NCBI GenBank assembly: GCA_017857175.1
Contig: JAFMDS010000020.1
Location: forward strand, 1 to 32,935
DNA: 32,935 nt
Direction: 5' to 3'
Source: Candidatus Nanopelagicales bacterium
GTDB lineage: Bacteria; Actinomycetota; Actinomycetes; S36-B12
Positions 6,422 through 32,811 of this stretch are shown piece after piece. The translations under genes and the position numbers were made by a program. Each line of letters starts with the position of its first letter. Within the stretch, counting starts at the first letter, position 1. Under the pieces are notes generated by a model. The model saw only the letters and a program-made list of their open reading frames with translations, had not been told where the DNA came from and did no database searches.

Positions 6422-7288
6422 ATGTCTATCTGGCTGAACTCAGACAGCAAGATCCTCGTCCAAGGAATGACTGGTTCCGAGGGTACAAAGCACACCCGCC
6501 GCATGGTGGCGAGCGGAGCCAAAGTCGTTGCAGGTGTGACTCCGGGCAAAGCTGGCCAAGAAGTTGACGGCATTCCCGTTTACAACAACGTGGCGGATGC
6601 CATGGCTGCGACCGGAGCAAATGTTTCTGTTGTTTTTGTTCCACCAAAATTCGCCAAAGCAGCTGTTGAAGAAGCCGTCGATGCCAAGATTCCGCTGTGT
6701 GTTGTGATCACCGAGGGAATCCCGGTTCATGACACGGCGCAATTCTTTCAATATGCAGTGAACGCTGGCACCACTCGGATTATCGGGCCAAACTGTCCTG
6801 GAATTATTAGTCCAGGACAATCCAATGCAGGAATTATTCCTGCTGACATCACCCAGCCGGGGCGCATTGGGCTGGTGTCAAAGTCAGGCACGCTGACCTA
6901 TCAAATGATGTACGAATTGCGTGACTTCGGCTTTTCCACCTGCGTCGGCATTGGTGGCGATCCAATCATTGGGACAACGCATATCGATGCACTTGAAGCA
7001 TTCCAGAATGACCCTGACACCGATGCCATCGTGATGATCGGAGAAATCGGTGGTGATGCTGAGGAACGTGCTGCAGCGTTCATCAAAGAGCATGTGACAA
7101 AGCCCGTTGTCGGTTACGTTGCCGGTTTCACTGCACCTGAAGGCAAGACAATGGGTCACGCTGGAGCGATCGTTTCAGGTTCGTCGGGCACTGCTGCTGC
7201 AAAGCAGGAGGCTCTGGAGGCGGCTGGTGTGAAAGTGGGACGCACACCGAGTGCGACCGCTGCACTCATGCGTGAAATTCTTTCGTAG
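6422..7288 (+). CDS. sucD: Succinyl-CoA synthetase, alpha subunit
   Basis: A 288-residue alpha chain that carries the phosphohistidine intermediate. The Rossmann CoA-binding domain starts with [28 protein letters not shown] and [13 protein letters not shown] are standard. The active-site histidine is His246 in [19 protein letters not shown] near the end of sucC serves as its ribosome-binding site. The stop codon TAG (7286-7288) is immediately followed by an ATG that starts a chain of tiny coupled reading frames leading into the TauE/SafE gene. Confidence 0.97.
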
Positions 7289-7322
7289 ATGATCAAGCTC
7301 AGATGATCAAGCTCAGATGATC
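7287..7322 (+). repeat. 14-bp tandem repeat linking sucD to the TauE/SafE gene
   Basis: Two perfect copies of AGATGATCAAGCTC (7287-7300, 7301-7314) and the first 8 bases of a third (7315-7322). Each copy contains an ATG. The first two ATGs (7289, 7303) each open a five-codon frame (MIKLR) whose TGA overlaps the next ATG as ATGA. The third ATG (7317) is the start of the permease. With the sucD stop directly before the first ATG, this gives stop/start contacts at 7286-7291, 7303-7306 and 7317-7320. Confidence 0.9.
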
Positions 7323-18985: not shown

Positions 18986-19046
18986 CCCCCACCAGCTCTA
19001 AGCAGTGAACTTCATTCAAACTTTTTATCCGTACAAGTTCAAATCA

Positions 19047-19102
19047 ACGATTTCAAGCTCAAGATTTCAACTAAACGATTTCAACTAAACGATTTCATAT
19101 CA
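19047..19102 (+). repeat. Four 14-bp tandem units upstream of the permease gene
   Basis: Consecutive 14-mers: ACGATTTCAAGCTC, AAGATTTCAACTAA, ACGATTTCAACTAA and ACGATTTCATATCA, all sharing GATTTCA at the same phase. They sit between the hairpin and the Shine-Dalgarno GAGGAGGA (19132-19139). They might be a slippage product, a protein-binding array or an mRNA spacer. Confidence 0.8.
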
Positions 19103-19145
19103 GCGATACCGATCGCGACGCTAAATTCCCCGAGGAGGACTCACC

Positions 19146-20018
19146 GTGCAGATAGTGCAGGTACTTGCCTACGGAATCTTGTTAGGGGGGATTTATGCAC
19201 TCTTGGCTTCCGGGGTGACTCTCATTTTTGGAGTCCTTGACGTTGTTAACGTTGCGCAGGGAGCATTCCTAGTTTTTAGTGCGCTCTTCACTTGGCAGAT
19301 CTGGGACATGTTCGGAATCGAACCACTCCTGTTGATCCCAGTAATGGGCGCAATGATGGGGCTCATTGGCTGGGCCATCTACCGAGGCATGTTGATTCGA
19401 GTTGCGCCCCAAGGGCCTGGCATGACGGTGCTCCTGATGTTTGGCGTTGCTCTCACCATGGAGGGAATCCTCAACCTTGGCTTTGGTAACAAGTTCAAGT
19501 CAGTCACGCCAGCTTATTTCACGCAGTCCCTCAATATCGGGGAGATCGTTCTCCCGTATCCACAATTAATTTCGGGCGTTCTCGCAATTGTTGTTCTTGG
19601 TGCGATCTACGCTTATCTGCGCTTCTCGTGGGCGGGACGTGCGCTGCGTGCCTCGTCTCAAAATCGTGATGGTGCAGCACTCGTTGGCATCTCGCACAAA
19701 AAAGCAGCTGGATTTGCATTCGCAATAGGAGCTGCCACTGCTGGTGTTGGTGGTGTGCTCCTTGCGATCATGTATCCGATTTTCCCCGCAACCCACTATG
19801 AATGGATCGCGCGGCTACTGGGCGTAGTTGTACTTGGTGGTTTTGGAAGCATCCCGGGCGCAATAATTGCGGCCCTGCTCCTGGGCACCATGGAGTCTTT
19901 CGCGGCCACATTTGTTCCGCAGTGGGCTCCACTGTTCTTCTACGGAACGATTTTGCTCATCTTGGTGTTTCGCCCTCAGGGAATCATGGGTTCTAAGACT
20001 CGAGAGGACGTGGCGTGA
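19146..20018 (+). CDS. Liv-type ABC transporter permease (LivH-like)
   Basis: A 290-residue inner-membrane permease with about eight helices. The N-terminus LAYGILLGGIYALLASGVTLIFGV is the LivH hallmark, followed by DVVNVAQGAFLVFSALFTW. The C-terminal coupling region GVVVLGGFGSIPGAIIAALLLG is also typical. The GTG start is preceded by GAGGAGGA at about 7 nt. It pairs with the LivM half of the next gene to form the translocation channel. The stop overlaps the next start. Confidence 0.93.
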   Translation: MQIVQVLAYGILLGGIYALLASGVTLIFGVLDVVNVAQGAFLVFSALFTWQIWDMFGIEPLLLIPVMGAMMGLIGWAIYRGMLIRVAPQGPGMTVLLMFGVALTMEGILNLGFGNKFKSVTPAYFTQSLNIGEIVLPYPQLISGVLAIVVLGAIYAYLRFSWAGRALRASSQNRDGAALVGISHKKAAGFAFAIGAATAGVGGVLLAIMYPIFPATHYEWIARLLGVVVLGGFGSIPGAIIAALLLGTMESFAATFVPQWAPLFFYGTILLILVFRPQGIMGSKTREDVA

Positions 20019-26422: not shown

Positions 26423-27436
26423 ATGCAGGTTCGACAGTACCTGATTAGGCGGCTAGCTTTGTTGCCGCTGATCATGCTCGGTGTGAGCATCATCGTGTTC
26501 ACCTTGACTCGATTTACCGGATCTCCCGTTGGCATTTACGCGACACCAGACATGACGCCCGATGAGCTGGCTGCACTAGAAGAGCGCTATCGACTTGATG
26601 AGCCAATACCGGTTCAGTACGCCTATTGGCTTTGGGGCCTTTTGAGGGGGGACCTCGGTTGGTCAGGTGTCTCTGTGGCTCCCGTCACCGACGTCATCGG
26701 TCTCAAGCTCGCGGCAACTTTGGAGCTAGCCTTGTTTGCGGCCCTGGTGGCCATCGTCGGCGGGATTGCATTGGGCACCATCGCGGGAGTGCGTCGCAAC
26801 AAGGCGCCGGATCATGCTGCGCGCTTCTTCTCCATTTTGGGTGCAAGTACCCCGACCTTCTGGTTCGGACTGCTCTTGCTTATTCCGTTCTACCTGTGGC
26901 TTGATTGGTTCCCCATTGGTAGGTCGACACCAGAAATCTTTGACACCATTGCGCACCCCACGGGGCTCTATACCGTCGACTCAGTGGTGAGCCTGAATCC
27001 CACGGCGATGTGGGATTCCATCCGACACATAATTCTTCCGGCGGTGGTACTCGGGTTTGGAGCAATGGCGATCATCGTTCGCATGATGCGGTCGTCAATG
27101 GTGGAGACAATGTCCGAGGAATATGTCGATGCTGCACGCGCCAAAGGTTTACCCGAGAAGCTGGTCATCAAGCGACATGCGCGCCGCAATGCTCTGGTTC
27201 CCACAGCCACCGTAATTGGTTTGAGTTTTGGTTTTCTCCTTCAAGGAGCTGTGGCTGTGGAGTTGATCTTTCGATGGCCGGGCCTGGGTCAATGGGTAAC
27301 GAGTGCAATCCTGTCGGGGGATCAAGCAACGATTATGGCCTATGTCCTGATTACCAGCTTGATCTTCATGCTCATCAATCTCACAGTTGACATTGCCTAT
27401 GCTTATCTTGACCGACGGGTGGTGCTCGGTTCATGA
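26423..27436 (+). CDS. Dipeptide/oligopeptide ABC transporter permease (DppB-like)
   Basis: A 337-residue membrane subunit with six helices. The N-terminus YLIRRLALLPLIMLGVSIIVF and GSPVGIY are typical of DppB/OppB. The large extracytoplasmic loop lies after helix 1 (MTPDELAALEERYRLDEPIPVQYAYW). The coupling helix EEYVDAARAKGLPEKLVIKRHARRNALVP contacts the ATPases. The start follows GAGGG at 4 nt. It overlaps the next gene by four bases (ATGA). Confidence 0.94.
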   Translation: MQVRQYLIRRLALLPLIMLGVSIIVFTLTRFTGSPVGIYATPDMTPDELAALEERYRLDEPIPVQYAYWLWGLLRGDLGWSGVSVAPVTDVIGLKLAATLELALFAALVAIVGGIALGTIAGVRRNKAPDHAARFFSILGASTPTFWFGLLLLIPFYLWLDWFPIGRSTPEIFDTIAHPTGLYTVDSVVSLNPTAMWDSIRHIILPAVVLGFGAMAIIVRMMRSSMVETMSEEYVDAARAKGLPEKLVIKRHARRNALVPTATVIGLSFGFLLQGAVAVELIFRWPGLGQWVTSAILSGDQATIMAYVLITSLIFMLINLTVDIAYAYLDRRVVLGS

Positions 27437-28377
27437 CAATGACATCAGAGAACGTGACTATTTCATCAGAATCCCAGCATCCCAGGAAGTTGCGTAGCCG
27501 CGCATCATCTGTTCGCTGGGCTCGTCGCCGCGAAGTCATGCGTGAAGTCCTGCGCAACCCGTTGACGGTGATCGGTGTTGTGATCATTACCCTTTTCCTC
27601 CTCATGGCGGCGATGGCTCCGCTCTTGACAGAGGCCAATCAGCCGGATCCCTATCAAAGCCCTCGAGACTGGGCAAACATTGACGCGGCGCCAGGGGTTG
27701 AGGGTCACGTGTTGGGCACAGATTCGACAGGCGGAGACGTCCTGTACGGGATCATCTGGGGGTCTCGACTCTCGCTGCAACTGTCCTTGACCGTGGTGAT
27801 CTCCACCCTGATCATCGGAACGTTTGTCGGAAGTGTTGCCGCAATGCGAGGTGGCCGCATTGACAACTTCCTTATGCGGGTAGTGGATGTATTCCTAGCA
27901 ATTCCTGAACTTATCTTCGCTCTTGCGATCGCAGCAATCTTGGGACCATCATTTCGCAACATCATTTTGGCCCTCGCTGTTGTGTTCTGGGTCAAATACG
28001 CTCGAATTATCAGAGGCGAAATCATTCGGGTAAAGCAAACCGATTACGTGGCTGCGGCGCGGGTCGTTGGGGATTCGACGTGGAATGTTTATCGTAAAGA
28101 TGTCCTCCCCAATGCAGTGACGCCGCTTGTCGTCCAAGCCACTTTGGACATGGGCAATGTGGTGCTCATTGGAGCCGCTTTGAGTTACATCGGCTTGGCT
28201 CAAGCCGGACTCACTGAATGGGGCGCAATGGTTAGCGCTGGGCAATCCGGAATTCTTGCGGGTCAATGGTGGGTGTCCACATTTGCTGGCGTAGCCATTT
28301 TGCTGTGGGCACTTGCATTTAATCTCGTTGGTGACGGATTGCGCGATGCCCTAGATCCCAAGACCGAAGGGCGGTGA
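27433..28377 (+). CDS. Dipeptide/oligopeptide ABC transporter permease (DppC-like)
   Basis: A 314-residue partner permease. A cytoplasmic N-terminus of about 45 residues precedes the first helix (NPLTVIGVVIITLFLLMAAMAP), followed by the DppC hallmark HVLGTDSTGGDVLYGIIWGSR. The coupling loop TDYVAAARVVGDSTWNVYRKDVLPN is present. The C-terminus NLVGDGLRDALDPK is standard. It starts by ATGA overlap with the DppB-like gene and ends by GTGA overlap with the next one. Confidence 0.95.
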   Translation: MTMTSENVTISSESQHPRKLRSRASSVRWARRREVMREVLRNPLTVIGVVIITLFLLMAAMAPLLTEANQPDPYQSPRDWANIDAAPGVEGHVLGTDSTGGDVLYGIIWGSRLSLQLSLTVVISTLIIGTFVGSVAAMRGGRIDNFLMRVVDVFLAIPELIFALAIAAILGPSFRNIILALAVVFWVKYARIIRGEIIRVKQTDYVAAARVVGDSTWNVYRKDVLPNAVTPLVVQATLDMGNVVLIGAALSYIGLAQAGLTEWGAMVSAGQSGILAGQWWVSTFAGVAILLWALAFNLVGDGLRDALDPKTEGR

Positions 28378-29609
28378 GCAATGTGAGTGCGAGCGATGTG
28401 AATAACAGCGAAGACTGGTTGCTGCGCGTGGATGACCTGAGTGTGCATTTCCACACTCCTCGGGGGGTGGTTCAAGCTGTCGATCACGTTTCATTTGAGG
28501 TGAGGCCCGGTGAAACTCTCGCCCTTGTTGGTGAAACAGGCTGCGGAAAGAGTGTGACCGCTCGGTCGATCATGAAACTAGTTCCAGAACCACCAGGGGA
28601 TTACGCCTCGGGAAAAGTCATGTTGCGCAACCCTGCCACGGGCGCAGTTATTGACATGCTCGCTGCTCCGATGGATCAAGTTCGCGCAACGCGTGGGGAT
28701 CGTATTGCCATGATTTTTCAGGATCCAGGAAAGGCATTGAATCCATCTTTGACTATCGGCCGTCAATTGGCTGAAGTCTTTGGTGAACATCGTGCTCAGA
28801 TGTTGCTTACCAACGCAGGGATCGATCCTGCCAAGGCGCCGTTGGGATCCAAGTCGGTGGCGAGCCAAAGAGCAGGAGTGATTCGACGTTCGTTTTTCAA
28901 TCTGACTCACCGAGGACAGTCGCGCGCACTGCAAGCAGCAGTTGATGCCTCTGTAATCGATGCCCTCTCCGATACCGGAATTCCAAATCCCCGAAAAGTG
29001 ATGTCGAGTTACCCACATGAGCTTTCAGGTGGAATGAAGCAGCGCGTGATGATTGCACAGGCTTTAGCGTGTGATCCCGATCTTCTCATCGCTGACGAAC
29101 CCACGACCGCTCTCGATGTCACCATTCAGGCACGGATCTTGGATTTGATCAACGATATGCAGCAACGGCGTGGAACGGCAATCCTGTACATCACACACGA
29201 CCTGTCACTGGTTCGACAATTTGCAGACCGTTTGGCTGTGATGTACGCGGGACGTTTGGTGGAGAGCGGTCCTGCACTTGAAGTGCTCAGATCCCCCCAG
29301 CATCCTTACACCCAAGGGCTGCTTGCGGCGATCCCTCGTGCCGGTACGCCGCGCGGTCAATTGGCGGCCATCGCTGGTTCCGTACCTCAGCTCATTGACC
29401 CGCCACCGCAGTGTCACTTCAGCTCACGATGTTCGTTCAGTGCGCAAGCCTGCACAAATCATGTGCCGGGACTCATTCCCCTGCCCGTTGCTCGTGAAGT
29501 CGCCTGCCTTCGATTCACGGATGCTGTAAGTTTGGGCGTTAATCAAGAGCAAATGCCCAGTCACGTGGACCTCATTGAAGTCGAATCAGCGGAGGCGGTG
29601 TCCTCATGA
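28374..29609 (+). CDS. Dipeptide/oligopeptide ABC transporter ATPase (DppD-like, enlarged)
   Basis: A 411-residue ATPase; typical family members are about 330. Walker A GETGCGKS (53-60), Q-loop FQDP (115-118), signature LSGGMKQRV (217-225), Walker [13 protein letters not shown] (237-248) and H-loop ITHDLS are intact. About 45 extra residues lie between Q-loop and signature (roughly 140-187, basic and Ala/Ser-rich). The C-terminal oligopeptide-transporter domain carries the Cys cluster [14 protein letters not shown] and a further tail of about 50 residues. The GTG start overlaps the DppC-like gene; the in-frame GTG at 28383 is an alternative. Confidence 0.92.
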
Positions 29610-30991
29610 GTATTACTGAACAGCAACTAGGTAATGGTCAGCCCGCCACCACATCCAAGAGTGACGTGATGACTTTGCGCGATGTAACGGTGCACTATCC
29701 CGTAAAAGAAGGTGTACTCCAGCGAGTGACAGGAGCCGTTAGGGCCGTAGATGGTGTCGATCTATCCATTCCTCGCGGTCAGACGTTAGGGCTGGTGGGT
29801 GAATCTGGGTGCGGCAAGACCACCCTTGGCCGAGTGATTGCCGGACTCGTTCCAGCAACGGGTGGAGATATTTGGTTTGACCTCGATGAAACAGCAAAAG
29901 CCCAAATGGAACGTCTGCGTTCGGTTCCCGAGAAGTCCATGTCGGCAGAGGATAAGACAATCTGGTCACACTTGGAGGCAAACCACCGCCTCGGTTCCAT
30001 GACACGAGAGCGGCAGCGCGTATACCGTCGAAACTGTCAGTTCGTTTTCCAAGATGCTTTCGCCTCTCTAAACCCACGGCAGCTTGTGCGAGACATTGTT
30101 GGGCGTCCACTGCGCGTGTATCACGAAGCGTCCGGTGAAGATTTAGACCTCAAGGTGATAAACCTGTTGGAGCGGGTAGGTCTCGGACCTCAGCATCTAC
30201 TTCGCTACCCGCATCAATTCTCCGGCGGGCAACGACAGCGCATATCTATTGCACGCGCGCTCGCTTTAAATCCCGAGTTTGTGGTACTCGATGAGCCAAC
30301 AAGTGCACTCGACGTATCTGTGCAGGCGCAAATATTGAATTTGCTTGTTGAATTACAGGAGGACCTTGGACTCACCTACCTGTTCATCACACACGATCTC
30401 GGTGTTGTGCAACACATGTCGGACTATCTGGCAGTGATGTACCTGGGGCGAATCGCTGAAATAGGACCAACCGCAGAGGTGTTCCATGACCCACTGCATC
30501 CGTACACGAAAGTTCTGCGTGACTCAAATCCCTCGCTGGAAGGTGATGAACTCGATCACTCGGCGCACCTGCGCTTAACGGGAACGGTGCCCAATCCAAT
30601 TGACCCACCTCAAGGGTGTCGATTGCATCCCCGGTGCCCAGTTTCTACGTCGGAGTGCGGCTGGCAGGTCGATGACATGTTCCTGAGTCTTGAGACGAGC
30701 ACGCCGGCATCCTTTGAGGCAATTTCACGCGTTGAACGATCCAGTCCCTTCGCTGCACAATTGGTTATGGACGATGACGTTGCTGCGCTAGAACTCTTTA
30801 CAGAGATCCAAAACTCTCGGTCACCCTTCGGTGGTGCCGTGGAAAACATCGAGTTGGACGGGGCGAACGTCTCCATCCGACTGCGGGAGGTGGAGGAGAT
30901 CCCTCTCATCCCGGTTGCACCAGGTCGGATGAGTTCCTGTCTGCTGGCAGGTCGCCCGGATGGTATCAGGCCTCCAGCCGAATCCCGTTAG
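29606..30991 (+). CDS. Dipeptide/oligopeptide ABC transporter ATPase (DppF-like, enlarged)
   Basis: A 461-residue ATPase, longer than the usual 330 or so. Walker A GESGCGKTT (65-73), Q-loop FQDAFASLNPR (from 148), signature FSGGQRQRISIARAL (205-219), Walker B FVVLDEPTSALD (225-236) and H-loop ITHDLG are intact. A charged helical insert of about 45 residues (92-140, DETAKAQMERLRS to TRERQRVYRRN) lies between Walker A and Q-loop. The C-terminal GCRLHPRCP motif is followed by an unusual tail of about 100 residues. The ATG overlaps the DppD-like stop (ATGA). Confidence 0.92.
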   Translation: MSITEQQLGNGQPATTSKSDVMTLRDVTVHYPVKEGVLQRVTGAVRAVDGVDLSIPRGQTLGLVGESGCGKTTLGRVIAGLVPATGGDIWFDLDETAKAQMERLRSVPEKSMSAEDKTIWSHLEANHRLGSMTRERQRVYRRNCQFVFQDAFASLNPRQLVRDIVGRPLRVYHEASGEDLDLKVINLLERVGLGPQHLLRYPHQFSGGQRQRISIARALALNPEFVVLDEPTSALDVSVQAQILNLLVELQEDLGLTYLFITHDLGVVQHMSDYLAVMYLGRIAEIGPTAEVFHDPLHPYTKVLRDSNPSLEGDELDHSAHLRLTGTVPNPIDPPQGCRLHPRCPVSTSECGWQVDDMFLSLETSTPASFEAISRVERSSPFAAQLVMDDDVAALELFTEIQNSRSPFGGAVENIELDGANVSIRLREVEEIPLIPVAPGRMSSCLLAGRPDGIRPPAESR

Positions 30992-30996
30992 TCATG

Positions 30997-31079
30997 AGTT
31001 CGAGGAAGAAAGGTACGTCCATGTCGATGTCAAATTCGAGGTCGGTAAAAAGTTCAAGGAAGGAAGGTACGTCCATGTC
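30997..31079 (+). repeat. Duplicated ribosome-binding-site/start module before the dppA-type gene
   Basis: Two 29-bp near-identical copies (30997-31025 and 31051-31079) at 54-bp spacing, differing at only two positions. Each holds a purine-rich Shine-Dalgarno stretch (AGGAAGAAAGG or AAGGAAGGAAGG) followed 7 nt later by ATG (31021 and 31075). Because 54 is a multiple of three, the copies stay in frame (SSRKKGTSMS / SSRKEGTSMS). Confidence 0.88.
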
Positions 31080-32811
31080 AGTATCTCTCAACGGTGTTCA
31101 ACACCGGTCGCGCAGTCGAGGAAGGTCCGCATTTGCGGCCGTCGTAGGCGCAGCGGCACTGGCACTGGTACTCAGTGCGTGCGGTGGTTCCGAAGGAAGT
31201 GGTGATGCGACTGATGCGGGTGCCTCCGATTCCTCAGGTGGCGCGGTTGAAGTTATTAACGCTAATGTCATCGTGCATCATCAAAATGGTGAACCAAACA
31301 GTCTTGACCCCGCTCGCGCCGAACAGGGCGAAAAAGGTGAAGCTTTTATTGACAATATTTATGAGCGACTTCTCGATGTCGGTCCGGATAGCCCCGATCT
31401 GATCCCTTCCCTCGCAACGGAGGTTCCTACCCAAGAGAATGGTCTCGTGAGTGCAGACCGACTCACTTACACTTTCCCCATTCGCCAGGATGTGACCTTC
31501 CATGACGGCACTCCGTTCACCGCCAACGACGTCGTCTACTCGTGGGAACGCGTCATGACGATGAATCTGCCGGAAGGCCAAGCCGCGGCTCTGGTGGACT
31601 CGGTAGCCTCGATGCGGGCTGTGGACGATTTCACCTTCGAGGTCACCCTCAATGAGCCTGACGCGTCATTCCTCTACTCCGTTGTTCTCAACCCGGTGGC
31701 GTCAATCGTCAGCCCAACCGCGGTTGAGGCGAACGGCGGCATTGTCGCGGACACTCCGAGTGAGTGGATGGATACCAACATGGTGGGCACAGGACCCTAC
31801 GTATTTGATAGCTGGAAACGTGGGGAGTCACTGTTGATGACCGTCAACCCGAATTACTGGGGCACCAAGGCAAATGCTGATGTGCGCTGGGACATCACTC
31901 CAGAAGAGAGCTCTCGCGTGCTTGCTCTGCAGGCGGGGGATGCCGACATCATTGACATCTCGCCATCAAACGTGAGCGATGTTGAAGGGGTTGAAGGCGT
32001 AACTATCTATGAAAACGGACTCTTGTTGGAACCCATTCACCTGGGATTCAACATGCGCTCGGATTCACTTCCATCAGGAGACACCATCCCGAGTGATTTC
32101 TTCGCAGATAAGAAGATCCGTCAAGCATTTAGCTATGCATTCGATTACGACACGTATATCAACTCGTTCCTCGATGGCTATGGTGCTCGTTACACCTCAT
32201 ACATCCCACAAGGTGTATTCGGTTATGACGAGACTGCTCCTGTATACAACTACGATCCCGCAAAGGCTGCAGAGTTGCTCCAGCAAACTGAGTACTGGGA
32301 CAAGGGATTCACGGTCTCAATTCTTGTGCAGGCAGGGGAGCCCGAGTTTGAAGGCGTTGCGCTCTTGATGAAGGACGGTATTGAGAAACTGAATCCGAAT
32401 TTCCGAGTCAACGTGGTTAACCAGGCCGAGACCCAGTTCGATGAGAACTTGGGAGCAGACCCCGTTCCCTATGCACTCTGGGTGAAGAACGCTGATCCCG
32501 GCGCGGACCCACACCAGTTCTTTGACCCCCTGCAGCATCCTGATGGGGACTGGGGTTCCAAGCACGGTATGCGGGACGCTTATGAAGATCCCGATCGAAT
32601 CGCTGAACTGATTGACTCGGGTAAGGCGACTATCAACCCTGAAGAGCGCAAGGCGATCTACGCGGAGTTGCAAAGACTCCTCCAGGAGGATCCCATGTGG
32701 GTGTACGCGGCACAGGAAGGCTTGGCCTACCCCTACCGTTCGTGGCTCAATGGGTTCGTGGTGAATCCGCTGTGGCGCGGACCGCACTACGAGTACTACT
32801 CCAAGGGCTAG
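31075..32811 (+). CDS. Dipeptide/oligopeptide-type ABC transporter substrate-binding lipoprotein
   Basis: A 578-residue lipoprotein of the SBP_bac_5 (DppA/OppA) family that captures a peptide or similar solute outside the membrane. From ATG 31075 there is a basic N-region, a hydrophobic core and the lipobox LVLSAC (Cys36). The mature part shows NSLDPARAEQGEKGEAFIDNIYERL, a signature-like VTFHDGTPFTANDVVYSWERV and GTGPYVFDSWKRGESL. ATG 31075 is chosen because AAGGAAGG precedes it at 7 nt and the signal peptide fits; in-frame ATGs at 31021 and 30994 would add a polar repeat in front of the signal. Last gene of the operon, unusual because binding proteins often come first. Confidence 0.9.
   Translation: MSVSLNGVQHRSRSRGRSAFAAVVGAAALALVLSACGGSEGSGDATDAGASDSSGGAVEVINANVIVHHQNGEPNSLDPARAEQGEKGEAFIDNIYERLLDVGPDSPDLIPSLATEVPTQENGLVSADRLTYTFPIRQDVTFHDGTPFTANDVVYSWERVMTMNLPEGQAAALVDSVASMRAVDDFTFEVTLNEPDASFLYSVVLNPVASIVSPTAVEANGGIVADTPSEWMDTNMVGTGPYVFDSWKRGESLLMTVNPNYWGTKANADVRWDITPEESSRVLALQAGDADIIDISPSNVSDVEGVEGVTIYENGLLLEPIHLGFNMRSDSLPSGDTIPSDFFADKKIRQAFSYAFDYDTYINSFLDGYGARYTSYIPQGVFGYDETAPVYNYDPAKAAELLQQTEYWDKGFTVSILVQAGEPEFEGVALLMKDGIEKLNPNFRVNVVNQAETQFDENLGADPVPYALWVKNADPGADPHQFFDPLQHPDGDWGSKHGMRDAYEDPDRIAELIDSGKATINPEERKAIYAELQRLLQEDPMWVYAAQEGLAYPYRSWLNGFVVNPLWRGPHYEYYSKG

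Follow-up and report, generated by a model that had tools for sequence, protein, structure and literature searches.

The window, by which we mean the whole stretch of 32,935 nucleotides analysed, comes from an uncultured actinobacterium and encodes on its forward strand a family-5 solute-binding lipoprotein (31,075-32,811; its longest frame opens at 30,994), whose SBP_bac_5 domain (PF00496; E 4.4e-75) scores 253.5 bits where the cut-off is 32.4. Its upstream neighbours, on the same strand, are those of an Opp/Dpp-type transporter, with two permease genes that each carry a BPD_transp_1 domain (26,423-27,436 and 27,433-28,377) and two ATPase genes that each carry ABC_tran and oligo_HPY domains; the first ATPase gene (28,374-29,609) completes the 26,423-29,609 portion of the operon, and the second (29,606-30,991) ends with a stop codon at 30,989-30,991, directly ahead of the region considered here. 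The sequence-only reading that drew attention to this locus had placed the binding protein last in its operon, which is true both in the window and in its closest relative, L009, a Candidatus Nanopelagicales genome from the same family as the window's. The operon is itself preceded by genes resembling OsmC and 3-hydroxyisobutyrate dehydrogenase, and from the dehydrogenase through to the binding protein the gene order appears to be shared with L009, the products of which were read by eye from their translations. Counted from the ATG at 31,075, a putative lipoprotein signal peptide extends through the codon of Cys36 (31,075-31,182) and contains the lipobox LSAC, both signal peptide and lipobox being called by pattern match alone.

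Between the ATPase stop and the signal peptide lies a 29-nt direct repeat, whose two forward-strand copies (30,997-31,025 and 31,051-31,079) are spaced 54 nt apart and identical at 27 of 29 positions. Allowing up to three mismatches, the 29-nt pattern matches twice in the window and not once in 100 dinucleotide shuffles, so the repeat is beyond chance. The same search across the whole draft genome returned these two places only (and none for a reversed control pattern), and a pattern confined to two sites rules out a repeat family. It had been proposed that a 54-bp unit is duplicated here in tandem and in frame. The two modules do share one open frame, but beyond the 29 nt the two proposed units agree at only 6 of their other 25 positions; what is repeated is thus 29 nt, a duplicated 54-bp unit is ruled out, and the spacer between the copies (31,026-31,050) does not recur after the second one. 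Tandem Repeats Finder, run at a minimum score of 40, called no array at 30,997-31,079. The first reading thus placed a real repeat correctly but overstated its size, and the repeat is ordinary in kind.

Each copy contains a Shine-Dalgarno (SD) sequence and a start codon. The frame from 30,994 to 32,811 runs uninterrupted for 605 codons, with in-frame ATGs at 30,994, 31,021, 31,027 and 31,075, in agreement with the earlier description of two SD-plus-ATG modules (starts at 31,021 and 31,075) and an additional in-frame ATG at 30,994. We found no 16S gene in the window's own draft genome (83 contigs), and therefore took the anti-SD tail from L043, a genome of the same family, in which 2 of 39 genomes gave a 16S match. 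With this tail, the SD-to-anti-SD duplex energies are -0.9 kcal/mol at 30,994, -8.1 at 31,021 in the left copy and -11.5 at 31,075 in the right copy, compared with a median of -2.4, a 5% quantile of -7.3 and a 1% quantile of -9.5 kcal/mol at 2000 random window sites. The sequence accordingly contains two SD-led in-frame starts, and the right site is among the strongest SDs of the window starts tested. The ATG at 31,027 shares the left SD with that at 31,021. The ATG at 30,994-30,996, 2 nt after the upstream stop, is not an SD start, given an energy of only -0.9 kcal/mol, and is unlikely to be the main start; beginning there would place the lipobox cysteine at position 63, as counted on the sequence. 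A long start would, as the sequence-only reading stated, put a polar extension before the signal peptide, amounting to 18 residues (MSMSNSRSVKSSRKEGTS) from the left in-frame ATG (31,021-31,023) and 27 from 30,994.

RNA folding at the start sites gave nothing beyond shuffles in the three window stretches (z 0.90, 0.65 and 0.23), and in four relatives' stretches z was -1.03, -2.65, -1.01 and -1.17, the L010 value alone being notable. The n-region of the signal peptide holds a short perfect palindrome, CGGTGTTCAACACCG (31,092-31,106), and the aligned place in L009 reads GTGATCATCAC, a paired change; the window stretch with this palindrome folds no better than shuffles.

Is the doubled module found in relatives? 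Protein searches returned one match, the window's own genome, in both the 12 genomes of the genus (E 1e-60) and 394 genomes of the class (E 1e-100), and four matches, the own genome included, in 166 genomes of the order; a scan of named genomes yielded 10 loci, including records from Microcella, Aquiluna and Gulosibacter. Starts were compared across 11 homologous rows (L009-L017, L019 and L020) that represent nine distinct loci, with L019 and L012, and likewise L020 and L013, looking identical in the compared stretches; L003 is the same locus as L009 and L006 the same as L015, and we left out L018 (47% identical) along with L002, L004 and L005, which matched weakly (30-37%). A comparable repeat occurs in none of the 11 rows: over a region reaching from 110 nt ahead of the start to 120 nt past it, the top-scoring internal direct repeat reaches 6-8 in these rows and 21 in the window. 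This absence rules out a conserved regulatory element, and retention of both modules, as expected of a conserved dual start, is seen at none of the nine distinct loci. The earlier reading had itself named absence from other isolates as evidence against its interpretation, and at the level of the related species compared the duplication is indeed absent.

The position of the start can be traced through the same comparison. The lipobox cysteine stands at position 31-36 in 11 of 11 rows, with homologue starts hand-picked from SD position and lipobox in a way that biases toward such agreement; in the nearest relative it is Cys36, a position that the window reproduces from ATG 31,075 alone. The distance from ATPase stop to start, measured in 10 of the 11 rows (for L011 the search detected no ATPase stop within 200 nt), is 17 nt in one, 28 nt in one, 29 nt in four and 36 nt in four. 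In the window, ATG 31,075 lies 83 nt (29 + 54) past the stop; the nearest relative, 88% identical, has a gap of 29 nt, which differs from the window's by the 54-nt spacing of the repeat, an exactness that is partly luck, as the alignment to this relative contains a small gap. The single initiation site of the nearest relative aligns with both the first copy (score 33) and the second (score 45), and in each case 0 of 300 shuffles scored as high. The relatives compared have no repeat, their gaps fall well short of the window's, and only 31,075 yields Cys36; by this comparison the gene inherited its start at 31,075, and this lineage acquired the left module in the interval after the ATPase stop.

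The repeat could also be an artefact of assembly or binning in a draft, metagenome-type assembly. This genome is in 83 contigs and yielded no 16S gene, and the lipoprotein gene ends 124 nt short of the contig end. A doubled k-mer repeat, however, does not usually look like this pair, which has 2 mismatches in 29 positions and dissimilar sequence between its copies. The two differences make an assembly error unlikely, and the artefact reading as a whole appears highly improbable to us.

We consider it quite probable that a lineage-specific micro-duplication added an initiation module to this gene, leaving the mature lipoprotein the same and probably having a small effect on yield. A short duplication would have copied the SD, the spacer and the ATGTC of the binding-protein gene's initiation region, and the copy would have been inserted in frame between the ATPase stop and the original start. 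Against a simple tandem duplication stands the dissimilarity of the part between the copies (6/25), which demands a later change in the spacer. A duplication somewhat longer than 29 nt, with a spacer that has since changed, would fit the alignments to the nearest relative; the end of the spacer resembles what follows the start codon in that relative, with a score reached by 4 of 500 shuffles. The ATG at 31,075, in the right module, would then serve as the principal start, with some initiation also at 31,021 in the left module, giving a precursor with 18 extra polar residues. Lipoproteins are matured by signal peptidase II, which cuts before the lipobox cysteine. Both precursors would be cut at one and the same cysteine, provided that the longer n-region is still exported, and this common cleavage would produce identical mature lipoproteins and so allow the duplication to be tolerated. 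The duplication would thus probably be either close to neutral or mildly boosting.

Might the longer precursor have a function of its own? The long form, with its 18 or 27 extra polar residues, could be targeted or processed differently, in the manner of dual-start holins, and a frame open throughout with two SD-led in-frame starts would permit this; pairs of N-terminal proteoforms are also known in bacteria (PMC11005335). The relatives, however, are without the extension, which consists mostly of repeat sequence and would be removed by lipobox cleavage, and we see very little likelihood that two functional precursors are at work.

A further possibility is that the module was selected for what it adds to expression. 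The sequence-only reading suggested that the duplication raises initiation, and such a translational booster would work through a left module coupled to the ATPase stop and a right module that recruits free ribosomes, the two together raising the yield of a binding protein that is required in excess despite its last place in the operon. The left ATG is 29 nt past the ATPase stop, which is about the ancestral distance and equal to that in four of the 10 rows for which the gap was obtained; the SDs are strong at both modules, and the repeat is in frame, so that initiation at the left is not wasted. There is also a laboratory precedent, in that a 38-bp duplication ahead of argB was reported among the mutations raising ArgB in evolved E. 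coli (PMC6941894). Yet relatives keep the same gene order without the repeat, the right SD is already strong on its own, and ribosomes started at the left would traverse the right site and might hinder it. With the repeat in 0 of 11 homologous rows, and the right site alone among the strongest SDs of the window starts tested, the suggestion that the duplication serves to raise initiation is not supported, and a selected booster seems improbable. Similarly doubtful is a two-module initiation device under selection, in which a stop-coupled and a free module would yield two precursors that become the same mature lipoprotein once the signal peptide is removed. If it were true, an initiation region could be duplicated in frame wherever a gene encodes a signal peptide that is later cleaved off, and the mature product would bear no cost.

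The significance of the locus, on the favoured reading of a micro-duplication, lies mainly in start-site annotation: the gene should begin at 31,075, not at 30,994 where the longest frame opens. If both starts work, it would be a natural example of an initiation region that can be doubled with the mature protein unchanged, because the signal peptide is cleaved off.

Short repeats at gene junctions also occur outside this operon, in line with a micro-duplication. In a simple scan that relied on a crude gene caller and covered 352,278 bases (the window and 25 further stretches, about 18% of its own genome), 14 near-tandem repeats were listed, 10 of them marked as junction or intergenic, a count that takes in two within open frames at contig ends (L035 and L048) and one inside a gene end (L039). 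Two elsewhere are close to starts. One, at window positions 7,287-7,322, is a 14-bp unit in 2.6 copies across the junction of a sucD-like gene and a TauE/SafE gene; it holds ATG three times (7,289, 7,303 and 7,317), without an SD, and the corresponding junction in the same-genus genome G009 (L023) is, by eye, shorter and free of the repeat. The other, at 7,736-7,779 of L040 (contig C30 of the own genome), is a 14-bp tandem repeat that lies immediately ahead of a start and runs into the end of the gene before it, on the minus strand. In the window, the gap before the gene starting at 19,146, by eye a branched-chain permease, also contains an array of about four copies of a 14-bp unit (19,038-19,107). 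The operon itself (26,423-32,811) is patchily distributed: none of the other 11 genomes searched in the genus has it, and it occurs in a single genome from a different genus within the family, where the binding protein is found twice, as well as in Microbacteriaceae-type records; this patchy spread suggests horizontal transfer.

Several known systems resemble parts of this arrangement. Phage holins with a 'dual start motif' produce two proteins that both persist and act differently. The likeness to the present locus is that two in-frame starts give products differing at the N terminus, whereas here the differing part would be removable by signal peptidase II and is absent in relatives. The argB case from evolved E. 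coli, a 38-bp duplication upstream of a gene that is reported to be without a canonical SD, with the effect explained by RNA folding (PMC6941894), is comparable as described there in being short, beginning near a start codon within an operon and altering the translation initiation region; it was selected in the laboratory, whereas the present case, with its two in-frame SD-plus-ATG modules, is known from sequence alone. In Beggiatoaceae, direct repeats of TAACTGA are reported before start codons across the genome, forming a family of heptamers most of which occupy sites lacking an SD (PMC4679880). Those repeats, as characterized in that report, likewise overlap the ribosome-binding region, whereas the locus described here has a single 29-nt pair that contains both SD and ATG.
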